Part shown: one piece after another, positions 28,916 to 32,384 of the stretch
How positions within the stretch are numbered: position 1 is the stretch's first letter
How the letters are laid out: the number at the start of each line of letters is the position of its first letter
Origin: Arthrobacter sp. zg-Y919
Lineage (GTDB): Bacteria > Actinomycetota > Actinomycetes > Actinomycetales > Micrococcaceae
DNA length: 64,000 bases
Assembly (NCBI RefSeq): GCF_030142045.1
Contig: NZ_CP126242.1
Location: 1,178,001 to 1,242,000 of the forward strand
Reading direction: 5' to 3'
Program-made: the position numbers and the translations under genes
Notes under the pieces: model-generated
The model's database searches: none
Told to the model about the DNA's origin: nothing
What the model saw: only the letters and a program-made list of their open reading frames with translations

Positions 28916-29836
28916 ATGGAAGCGGATTCCCCCCACGAGCGCTCCGGCGCGGACATGCCCGAGGACCAGGTTCAGGCACCCGAGGCCGACGTGCCTACCC
29001 TGGGTGACGTACTGCTGGCGGCCGAAGAACTCTGGCCCGAATCCCTGGCCGAGGGCTGGGATGCTCCCGGCCTGGTGTCCGGACGCGTCGACCGGGAGGT
29101 CCGGCGGATCCTGTTCGCTGTTGATCCCACCCGGGAAGTCATCGACGAGGCCCTCGAATGGGGCGCGGACCTGCTCCTGACCCACCATCCACTGCTGCTG
29201 AAGCCGGTGAATTCCGTCGCCGCCAGCACCTTCAAGGGCGAGGCCGTGCACCGCCTGATCGAAGGTGGCTGCGCGCTCCTGACAGTGCACACCAACGGTG
29301 ACAGCGCCGTCGGGGGAGTATCCGATGTCCTGGCCGATGCCTTCGGCCTGCGGCACGTTGCCCCGCTGGTGCCGGCCGCCGAAGGACTGCCCGAAGAGGG
29401 GATCGGCCGGGTCGGCGACCTGCCCGAGGTGCTCAGCCTGGCCGACTTCGCGGAACGTGTGTTCAGCATCCTGCCCGCCGTCGCCGGCGGCGTGCGGGTT
29501 GCCGGGGACCCGGACGGCCTGGTCCGCAGGGTCGCCGTCTGCGGAGGTGCCGGCGACGGCCTGTTCGACGCCGTGCGTGCCCAGCAGGCGGACGTCTATG
29601 TCACCGCGGACCTGCGCCACCACCCGGCGTCGGAACTGCGGGAGCGTGCCGCCACCGGCAACGGCCGCCCGTACCTCATCGATGTGTCCCACTTCGGCAG
29701 CGAATGGCTGTGGCTGACACCCGCTGCGAACGCCTTGGAAAACGTCCTCACGGACCAGGGCTTCGCCGCTGACGTGCGCGTCAGCGGAGTCAACACCGAT
29801 CCATGGGACTTCGTACTTACTCCCGGGCTGAAGTGA
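28916..29836 (+). CDS. Nif3-like dinuclear metal-centre protein
   Basis: A 306-residue Nif3/YbgI family protein, forming toroidal hexamers with a two-metal site; often annotated as a GTP cyclohydrolase I type 2 homologue without solid evidence. Motifs: LAEGWDAPGLVSGR, FAVDPTREVIDEAL, ADLLLTHHPLLLKPVN, TVHTNGDSA and DVSHFGSEW. The first 25 residues are a charged extension. It opens a plus-strand trio (Nif3, zinc-ribbon protein, RNase HI) that is conserved in actinobacteria, including mycobacteria. Confidence 0.92.
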   Translation: MEADSPHERSGADMPEDQVQAPEADVPTLGDVLLAAEELWPESLAEGWDAPGLVSGRVDREVRRILFAVDPTREVIDEALEWGADLLLTHHPLLLKPVNSVAASTFKGEAVHRLIEGGCALLTVHTNGDSAVGGVSDVLADAFGLRHVAPLVPAAEGLPEEGIGRVGDLPEVLSLADFAERVFSILPAVAGGVRVAGDPDGLVRRVAVCGGAGDGLFDAVRAQQADVYVTADLRHHPASELRERAATGNGRPYLIDVSHFGSEWLWLTPAANALENVLTDQGFAADVRVSGVNTDPWDFVLTPGLK

Positions 29837-29903: not shown

Positions 29904-30644
29904 GTGGCAAAAGCATCGCCCGCGGAGCAGCTGAGGCTGCTGGATCTGCAGGCCCTGGACAGCAGGATCAAGTCCCTGCGCAATCAGGCCCGCAACGTTA
30001 GCAACAATCCCGAGATCGCGTCCCTTGGCGATGCCGTAGCCGCCGCCGAAAGCGCACGCGTGTCCGCCGGTACCGAGGTCGCCGATATTGAACGCGAACT
30101 GGCGCGGGCCGAAGCGGACGTAGCTTCGGTCGTCGCGCGGATGGCCCGTGATCAGCAGCACCTGGACAGCGGGAAGGGCGGCTCCAAGGAGCTCACCGCC
30201 CTGCAGGCGGAGATCGTTTCCCTCGAACGCCGCCGGTCCGACTTGGAGGACGTTGAACTCGACGTGATGGAACGGCTGGAAACAGCCCGCACCCGCGAGG
30301 CCGAGGCAGGCGAGGCCCTGGGTGCCCTGCACGCCAAGCGCCGGGAACTGGAGGAAAAGCGCGACGCCGAGCTGGCAGTGATCGGCACCGACACCGCAGA
30401 CGCTGAAGCCCGGCGCGGAGAACTCGCCGCCAGCTTCGAACCGGCCCTCCTGGCGGTGTACGAAAAGACCCTTTCCAAGCACGGTATCGGCGCTGCCCGC
30501 CTGTTCCACGGCACGTCCGAAGGCTCTGGGATGCAGCTGAGCCCCGGCGACCTCGCTGATATCCGTAAGGCCGCCGATGAGGACATTGTGTTCTGTCCGG
30601 ATTCGGGCTGCATCCTGGTCCGCTCCGCCGAGTGGGGCAGCTGA
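29904..30644 (+). CDS. coiled-coil protein of the C4-type zinc-ribbon family, ribbon degenerate
   Basis: A 246-residue protein with a long N-terminal antiparallel coiled coil (about residues 5-180, heptads of Leu, Ala, Glu and Arg) and a short C-terminal domain. Relatives end in a zinc ribbon with two Cys-x-x-Cys pairs. Here the first pair position reads FHGTSEGSGMQLSPGDLADI, with no Cys, and the second is CPDSGC. Zinc binding in the usual way is therefore unlikely. GTG 29904 follows a GGAGG. The next gene starts three bases after its stop, so the two are coupled. Confidence 0.88.
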   Translation: MAKASPAEQLRLLDLQALDSRIKSLRNQARNVSNNPEIASLGDAVAAAESARVSAGTEVADIERELARAEADVASVVARMARDQQHLDSGKGGSKELTALQAEIVSLERRRSDLEDVELDVMERLETARTREAEAGEALGALHAKRRELEEKRDAELAVIGTDTADAEARRGELAASFEPALLAVYEKTLSKHGIGAARLFHGTSEGSGMQLSPGDLADIRKAADEDIVFCPDSGCILVRSAEWGS

Positions 30645-30647
30645 GAA

Positions 30648-31619
30648 GTGACATTGTTTGACCCGGAGCCGGAGCCGGACTCCGGCGCCGAAGCTGAGGT
30701 TGCCCGCGTCCCGGCCGGCGGACCCCGTCGTACCCTCATCGTCGAAGCGGATGGCGGTTCGCGCGGCAATCCGGGAATCGCCGGCTACGGCGCTCTGGTC
30801 CGCGATCCCGACACCGGCCGCATCCTCGCCGAGAAGGCGGAATACGTAGGCCGCGTGTCCAATAATGTCGCGGAGTATTCGGGCCTCATCGCCGCCCTGG
30901 AGCTGGCGCACAGCATCGACCCGGACTGCTGGATCCTGGCCAAGATGGATTCCAAGCTGGTCGTCGAGCAGATGAGCGGCCGCTGGAAGATCAAGCACGC
31001 CGATATGCAGAAGCTCGCGGCTAAGGCACGTTCGATCGTGAATCCGCAGCGGGTTAAGTACCAGTGGATTCCGCGCGAGTTAAACAAGGACGCGGACCGG
31101 CTGTCCAACGAAGCGATGGATGCCGGAACCGCCGGAATTCCGTGGAAGCCGCGCGCAGGCGCAGACACCAAGGCGGCGGCTGCCGCAGCCGTACTGGAAG
31201 CGGCTGCGTCTCCGGCTCCTGCGCCCGCTCCCACGGGACGGCTGCACCACACGGAGATCTGGGTCAATGACTTCGCAGCGGCGGAGAAATCCCTCGGCTG
31301 GCTGCTGGAGCGGCTGGGCTACGTCCGGAAGGAAACCTGGTCCACCGGCGGAAGCTGGCAGGGCGCTGAGGGGTACATCGTGCTCGAGTCCGGGCCCGAC
31401 GTCGAACGCGGCCCCTACTCCCGGAAACGGGCGGGCCTGAACCACCTGGCGTTCCGTGCAGGTTCGGAGGCCGACGTCGAGCTCCTGGCCCGTCGTGCGT
31501 CCAGCCACGGCTGGACCCTGTTGTTCGCGGACCGGCATCCCCACGCCGGGGGAGCGGAGCACTACGCCGCATACCTCGAAAACGACGAAGGCTTCGAAGT
31601 GGAACTGGTCGCCGGCTAG
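30648..31619 (+). CDS. RNase HI fused to a VOC (glyoxalase/bleomycin-resistance) domain
   Basis: A 323-residue two-domain protein. Residues about 28-160 are a complete RNase HI, degrading RNA in RNA:DNA hybrids, with catalytic Asp35 (EADGGSRGNPG), Glu76 (NNVAEY), Asp101 (MDSKLVVEQMSG) and Asp150 (NKDADRL). A linker of Ala/Pro (about 172-197) leads to a vicinal-oxygen-chelate domain, 199-323: LHHTEIWVND, GYIVLES, LNHLAFRAGS and GFEVELVAG supply the expected metal-ligand positions (His200 or 201, Glu247, His266, Glu319). In mycobacteria the RNase HI at this locus is joined to a CobC-type phosphatase instead. The fusion is in one frame with no sign of a junction error. The role of the second domain is unknown. 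Confidence 0.88.
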   Translation: MTLFDPEPEPDSGAEAEVARVPAGGPRRTLIVEADGGSRGNPGIAGYGALVRDPDTGRILAEKAEYVGRVSNNVAEYSGLIAALELAHSIDPDCWILAKMDSKLVVEQMSGRWKIKHADMQKLAAKARSIVNPQRVKYQWIPRELNKDADRLSNEAMDAGTAGIPWKPRAGADTKAAAAAAVLEAAASPAPAPAPTGRLHHTEIWVNDFAAAEKSLGWLLERLGYVRKETWSTGGSWQGAEGYIVLESGPDVERGPYSRKRAGLNHLAFRAGSEADVELLARRASSHGWTLLFADRHPHAGGAEHYAAYLENDEGFEVELVAG

Positions 31620-32384
31620 TTACCCGTGCAGGATGACGTTGAGCTGGTACGGTTTCCGGCCTGCCGGAGGCACCAGCTCGGCGTCCCACTTTTCCTGCGC
31701 GGCAGCCAGGAGCTCCTGAGGCGTAGCCGGCTCCACACCGGCCCGCTCGAGCAGGTGGCGGGCCAGCTCGCCCCGGGTGTGCTTGGCGAAATGCGAAACA
31801 ACCTTCCGTTCGCCGTTGCGCACGGAGAACACGTTGACCGCCGCCGTGTTCCGGGGATCCGGTGACCAGGCAGCCGCGTAGGTGCTGGAGCGGCAGTCAA
31901 CCACCAGGGAGTTCCCCGCATACTCATCCAGCGGGCCCGTGAGGTGCTGCTTCCAGAAAGCGGCGAGCCGGCCGGTTTCCGGCAGCCGCACCGACATGGA
32001 GAGCCGGTAGGCTGGGATCGGATCAGCAAAGCCAAGGGCACCCCACAGCGCGGACATCACAAGCACCGCGTCATCGGCACGCCGCTGCGCCGTGGATGAA
32101 AGCGTCGTGTAGCCCAATGCGTCGTACAGCACGCCCGTGTAGACCCGGTGCGCGGGCGCACAGGGTTCCATCTCCAGAGTGGTGTTGCGGCGCACTTCCG
32201 GTGCCAGCGTCGCCCCCACGCCCAGAACTGAGAGGGCGTCGCCGGAACTGCTCGCTTCGGCCAGGGCCTTGAGCACCAGGGAGCGGGGTTCGGACAGCAG
32301 CGGGAAATGCAGCCGGGACAGGTCCAGGGCGGCTCCTGTCGGGGCGGGCGTTTTTCCTTCGGAGGGCGGGAGCAGGATCAGCAC
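31620..32384 (-). CDS. yaaA: YaaA family peroxide-stress protein
   Basis: A 254-residue YaaA/DUF328 protein, known in E. coli to limit free iron and protect DNA under peroxide stress. The signature LILLPPSEGKT opens the protein; YTGVLYDALGY, SALWGALGFADPIPAYRLSM, and the C-terminal NVFSVRNGERKVVSHFAKHTRGELAR follow. Length is normal. Its stop codon abuts the stop of the convergent RNase HI-VOC gene with no spacer. Confidence 0.92.
   Translation of the reverse strand: MLILLPPSEGKTPAPTGAALDLSRLHFPLLSEPRSLVLKALAEASSSGDALSVLGVGATLAPEVRRNTTLEMEPCAPAHRVYTGVLYDALGYTTLSSTAQRRADDAVLVMSALWGALGFADPIPAYRLSMSVRLPETGRLAAFWKQHLTGPLDEYAGNSLVVDCRSSTYAAAWSPDPRNTAAVNVFSVRNGERKVVSHFAKHTRGELARHLLERAGVEPATPQELLAAAQEKWDAELVPPAGRKPYQLNVILHG

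Follow-up and report, generated by a model that had tools for sequence, protein, structure and literature searches.

RNase H1 cleaves the RNA of RNA-DNA hybrids by two-metal-ion catalysis. The closest described relatives of the gene analysed here are Rv2228c, MSMEG_4305, and SCO2299, in which RNase HI is joined to a CobC acid phosphatase (NCBIfam NF005567). According to the Introduction of PMC7466739, the basic protrusion is absent from the RNase H of Rv2228c, and the full-length protein cleaves faster than the RNase H domain alone, with CobC as the stimulating part. The same paper states that the domains of MSMEG_4305 were judged dissociable and most probably fixed by drift, and that removal of CobC from the RNase H-CobC protein was of little consequence in vivo. 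No paper describing a fusion of RNase HI with VOC or with DUF4440 was recognised in the open-access literature searched.

The window, which is the whole 64,000-nucleotide stretch of Arthrobacter sp. zg-Y919 DNA that was analysed, contains an RNase HI of the Rv2228c type, located behind the same NIF3-CT398 gene pair as the RNase HI-CobC proteins of other Actinobacteria. However, its C-terminal partner is a VOC domain instead of a histidine phosphatase (Table 1). No match to PF00300 (histidine phosphatase) was found in the fusion protein, and the NF005567 model matched residues 28-192 with a score of 222.7, below its cut-off of 326. The protein thus shares with this family the RNase H half and the locus, but neither the phosphatase domain nor the family score. 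A previous sequence-only reading had proposed a swap of the C-terminal partner, which the comparison bears out, the VOC standing where the syntenic locus of most other Actinobacteria sampled has the phosphatase; the latter may have been replaced directly or lost beforehand.

Table 1. Features of the fusion locus in the window, and related loci in other genomes
Feature	Position	Strand	Basis and remarks
RNase HI-VOC fusion gene	30648..31619	+	one open frame, 323 aa, GTG start at 30648, TAG ending at 31619; Pfam; kept in genus
N-terminal short motif MTLFDP, residues 1-6, variable tail	30648..30665	+	candidate protein-binding peptide
RNase HI domain, residues 28-160, actinobacterial Rv2228c type	30729..31127	+	D35 E76 D101 D150
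Ala/Pro-rich linker, residues 161-194	31128..31229	+	20-105 aa in relatives; low pLDDT in AlphaFold2 model
VOC (glyoxalase/dioxygenase superfamily) domain, residues 195-323	31230..31616	+	H201 E247 H266 E319
CT398-like coiled-coil/zinc-ribbon gene, conserved neighbour	29904..30644	+	stop 3 bases upstream of fusion; Pfam CT398_CC, Zn_ribbon_9; synteny
DUF34/NIF3 gene, conserved neighbour	28916..29836	+	Pfam; synteny
YaaA peroxide-stress gene, convergent neighbour	31620..32384	-	Pfam H2O2_YaaD; synteny
DivIVA-like-VOC loci, Jiangellaceae	L163-L167, L169-L171, L173-L183, L075, L077, L085
GNAT-VOC, Rothia	L076:2374-3444
NUDIX-VOC	L143:1009-1890
Methyltransferase-NUDIX-VOC	L161:334-1899
Canonical RNase HI-DUF4440	L186:925-1917, L187:946-2124, L188:898-1947, L189:1021-2001	- (all)

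The solved structure nearest to the RNase H half by sequence was 3hst, the RNase H domain of Rv2228c (E 1e-39), which was also the top Foldseek match (E 5e-16). Pfam assigned RVT_3 to residues 34-156 (E 3e-17) and RNase_H to residues 30-155 (E 3e-7), and the half combines the RNase H fold with the four DEDD acids of type 1 RNase H. The VOC half was nearest by sequence to 3ct8 of B. halodurans (E 1e-23), a deposited chain of 146 aa titled only 'putative glyoxalase'; the match covered its residues 19-145, and in the fusion the VOC is instead a C-terminal domain. Glyoxalase_4 (PF13669) was found at residues 200-309 (E 3e-10, 40.6 bits against a cut-off of 27), and both the paired beta-alpha-beta-beta-beta fold and the H/E/H/E metal ligands of the superfamily were present. 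Comparisons of sequence and fold did not single out one function for the VOC, be it glyoxalase I or another named activity. In the AlphaFold2 model (pTM 0.56), both domains were confident and the linker was low; a confident packing of the RNase H against the VOC was not found.

The sequence-only reading had stated that the RNase H acids and a plausible set of VOC metal ligands are kept, and this holds well beyond the window. Among 41 unique fused RNase H sequences, D101 and D150 were conserved in all and D35 and E76 in 40, with L116 as the exception, and the four VOC ligands were conserved in 49/49 fused VOC sequences of more than 100 residues, L029 with its cut VOC being excluded. For 12 sequences of the genus, the median dN/dS by NG86 simple counting, retaining only unsaturated pairs with dS > 0.05 (60-64 of 66), was about 0 for the RNase H half (63 pairs), 0.093 for the VOC half (64 pairs), and 0.073 for the linker (60 pairs).

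The fusion is a true, clade-wide variation on the two-domain RNase HI of Actinobacteria. All 29 genomes of the genus matched it, and 28 carried it in one open frame, the VOC of G022 being split between frames. Within the family, this RNase H was present in 58 of 197 genomes, which represent 10 of 32 genera. Ten of these genomes belonged to the Nesterenkonia-like genus g13 and had the RNase H without the VOC, their single match to the whole fusion being the RNase H in each case. Of the 48 others, 47 encoded RNase H and VOC in a single frame, and G169 had the halves on two contigs. The fusion was found beside NIF3-CT398 in nine genera of Micrococcaceae, and a collection scan with 75 named loci placed it in Arthrobacter, Citricoccus, Haematomicrobium, and Micrococcus. 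Both halves were carried by 63 loci, some of which represent the same genome twice; 61 had them in one frame, including L029 with its cut VOC, and the frames of L033 and L037 were broken. Removal of duplicates left 50 distinct fused spans, L029 among them, with linkers of 20-105 residues.

The gene order CysK-MsrA-NIF3-CT398-[RNase H-VOC]-YaaA was conserved in near relatives. In other Actinobacteria, the NIF3-CT398 pair likewise stands ahead of an RNase H, which in most of those sampled is an RNase H-phosphatase: among 49 RNase H frames unjoined to a VOC, 30 had a phosphatase in the same frame (Pfam example L043). The 19 frames with neither partner included eight from Nesterenkonia/Garicola, five from Georgenia/Oceanitalea, and L036, which stops at a contig end. 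The phosphatase half of L043 gave weaker matches in the genus (best E 5e-12 to 4e-17) than in five outgroup genomes (5e-23 to 1e-33); consequently, no clear phosphatase ortholog was found in the genus, although one may yet be present.

Each half was also found alone at this site. The RNase H stood alone at eight loci, or seven distinct ones, since the neighbour genes of L044 and L120 do not differ in sequence. Among 14 VOC-only regions, hand-picked from the better matches and not at random, the VOC occupied the site of the fusion in 13, behind CT398 in 11 and NIF3 in 2, with YaaA on its other side in 12; the fourteenth, L127, lay elsewhere. Three further VOCs of the family (L145, L152, and L154) had no site neighbour within their 1.5-kb flanks. 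In a tree built by a quick method from six neighbour genes (82 rows and 1138 columns), the first branch in the family was a fused row. With four partner states, six label changes were needed in total, of which four led to VOC-only, at least three of these being forced by well supported branches, and one to RNase H-only. From this branching and these counts, an early fusion followed by repeated loss of one half appears to be the simpler history, with the direction of the losses probably from the fusion to the single domains. Repeated fusion of neighbours would be another conceivable course, although two intact separate neighbouring genes were found at none of the 63 loci carrying both halves. 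All trees were quick searches, and the single-domain trees were short in columns, with identical sequences collapsed; the RNase H tree left out L036 and L128-L132, and the VOC tree left out L128-L132 and L029. The branch of the VOC tree that separates fused and same-site VOCs from the rest was weakly supported (79).

Loss of the fused-type RNase H was linked to the presence of a canonical RNase HI. Among 110 genomes of the family, 79 gave a strong PF00075 match (canonical RNase HI, best E < 1e-26). The remaining 31 all belonged to the 58 genomes with the fused-type RNase H and none of the 79 did, an exclusivity read from hit lists that do not enter each of the 79 as a miss. Canonical RNase HI was present in all 13 genomes with the VOC alone at the site, and no strong match was found in the 32 fused genomes searched or in eight g13 genomes. 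PF00075 detects the fused type only weakly: it failed to find it in 13 of the 110 genomes, three of which (G000, G029, and G061) did match in a further search. The fused RNase H is thus probably the only RNase HI of the cell, and because no other was found in most searched genomes carrying the fusion, the gene is probably important. This is less sure for G042, G071, G094, G115, and G132 (genus g15) and for G062 (g5), since they had a further, weaker PF00075 match in long frames (E 4e-15 to 2e-9). The one examined, in G042 (L190:1381-3084, minus strand), belongs to a protein of 568 aa whose RNase H domain lies close to the C-terminus; Pfam gave no match for the N-terminal part. RNase HII was present in 11/11 genomes tested, which means that the cell has another RNase H besides the fused gene.

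One genome outside the 110, G226, carried both the fusion and a canonical RNase HI. In its fusion (L116:2990-3925, minus strand), the RNase H half had the substitutions D35G and E76D, broke 9 of 41 near-invariant columns (the next worst sequence broke 4), and sat on a very long branch (2.23), whereas the VOC was intact and broke 1 of 26 columns. This reads as a redundant RNase H half in decay beside a VOC still in use.

The same VOC also occurs on other proteins. Relatives at E ≤ 0.001 were found in 79 of 248 genomes of the order and 74 of 394 of the class, the lowest being weak at about 30% identity, and many actinobacterial relatives sit in frames of 130-200 aa. Other fusions, with frames taken from stop to stop, likewise had the VOC at the C-terminus but with unrelated N-terminal partners, namely DivIVA-like repeats, GNAT, NUDIX, and methyltransferase-NUDIX (Table 1). 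In Jiangellaceae, the DivIVA-like motif was seen in 19 of 20 fetched f38 loci, and the Pfam DivIVA model was reached weakly in the two such proteins scanned. On the VOC tree, these cases were separate both from the RNase H fusions and from one another, the DivIVA group as one clade and the three single cases without strong support; independent origins of the latter are not required by any well supported branch. Since it is joined to several unrelated partners, the VOC may well be an autonomous enzyme. Among plasmids, 37 records matched the fusion, with only the VOC covered in 19 of the 20 matches listed. Three standalone relatives on Arthrobacter plasmids (L191, L192, and L195) adjoined transposases and recombinases. 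The plasmid neighbours of five VOC relatives revealed no clear pathway, those in Arthrobacter being transposases, recombinases, a methyltransferase, and a GNAT protein.

Taken together, we consider the protein most likely to be a chain of two enzymes that act independently of each other. Its N-terminal half, which is the sole type 1 RNase H detected in this genome, would cut the RNA of RNA-DNA hybrids by two-metal catalysis, as its intact residues and homology suggest. Judging from its residues, its fold, and general knowledge of the superfamily, the C-terminal half would be a self-contained enzyme that holds one metal via two His and two Glu and acts on a small molecule by isomerase, lyase, or thiol-transfer chemistry. 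The VOC would have been joined on in an ancestor of Micrococcaceae. The occurrence of either half alone at the site, the pattern of canonical RNase HI, the decay in G226, and the presence of the VOC on other domains all argue for two separate enzymes. The model with two confident domains and a low-confidence linker, and the small in vivo effect of CobC removal reported for the related protein, point the same way. Since nine genera retain the open frame and the linker shows constraint within the genus, the join may still have a role, and co-residence on one chain might at most serve co-expression or stability, with no joint reaction. The C-terminal partner in the two-domain RNase HI of Actinobacteria is thus exchangeable, and fusion, RNase H-only, and VOC-only loci at the same site, plus G226, provide a natural experiment on whether the partner matters. 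The VOC itself is an uncharacterised enzyme that deserves a substrate search.

Partner effects are possible since the C-terminal domain raises the RNase H activity of Rv2228c, and the VOC could modulate the RNase H in cis by substrate grip, product release, or dimerisation, as proposed for CobC in that protein. The VOC would take on such a role to make up for the basic protrusion, which is missing from this type of RNase H. We regard this as unlikely and retain it because CobC is reported, in the Introduction cited above, to stimulate Rv2228c, although the MSMEG_4305 domains were judged dissociable. The conservation of fusion and linker is consistent with modulation, but the RNase H manages alone at the Nesterenkonia/Garicola loci, with eight g13 genomes lacking a strong canonical match; the linker length varies widely across relatives, and the predicted model gives no confident domain packing. 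Less likely again is a metabolically coupled or damage-directed enzyme, in which the VOC would bind or convert a small molecule or damaged nucleotide and direct or gate R-loop or primer removal. The intact metal ligands would suit such an enzyme, and three unrelated C-terminal domains on RNase HI (phosphatase, VOC, and DUF4440) could hint at a theme, but the VOC is retained without the RNase H at the same site and also occurs on DivIVA-like, GNAT, and NUDIX domains and alone on plasmids. The sequence-only reading had offered three options. The two in which the halves act together, on R-loops carrying small molecules or on damaged nucleotides, found no support, given that sister genera hold each half alone at the locus, that the VOC is also attached to unrelated proteins, and that G226 kept the VOC after two RNase H acids were lost; the third, a simply linked enzyme, fits best. 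An artefact or decaying fusion, with a lost stop codon or read error and the VOC as inactive debris, can be put aside despite broken frames in L029, L033, and L037, as the 28 one-frame genomes of the genus, the 50 fused spans in relatives, the invariant ligands, and dN/dS well below 1 argue strongly against it, and no sampled relative showed two intact neighbouring genes.

In all four cases examined, three from VOC-only genomes and one from G226, the canonical RNase HI bore a C-terminal DUF4440 domain. Like the fusion, these proteins join RNase HI to an unrelated C-terminal domain within the same family, but they differ in RNase H type, locus, and rider. It is a long shot that unrelated small-molecule domains (CobC phosphatase, VOC, and DUF4440) were added time and again to the C-terminus of RNase HI in these Actinobacteria because such a rider links the metabolic state to the removal of R-loops or primers. 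The VOC fusion would then be one instance, and its N-terminal LFD motif would recruit the enzyme to the replication clamp. An LF followed by D, E, G, or N stood ahead of the RNase H in 47 of the 50 unique fused sequences, at a distance of 12-29 residues in 46, with the start codons of relatives unfixed, and was absent from three Micrococcus/Citricoccus sequences. The motif is a candidate protein-binding peptide and resembles beta-clamp-binding peptides, as does its Georgenia form SQASLFD. Among the 49 RNase H frames unjoined to a VOC, six had a similar motif, five of them being Georgenia/Oceanitalea frames with SQASLFD.
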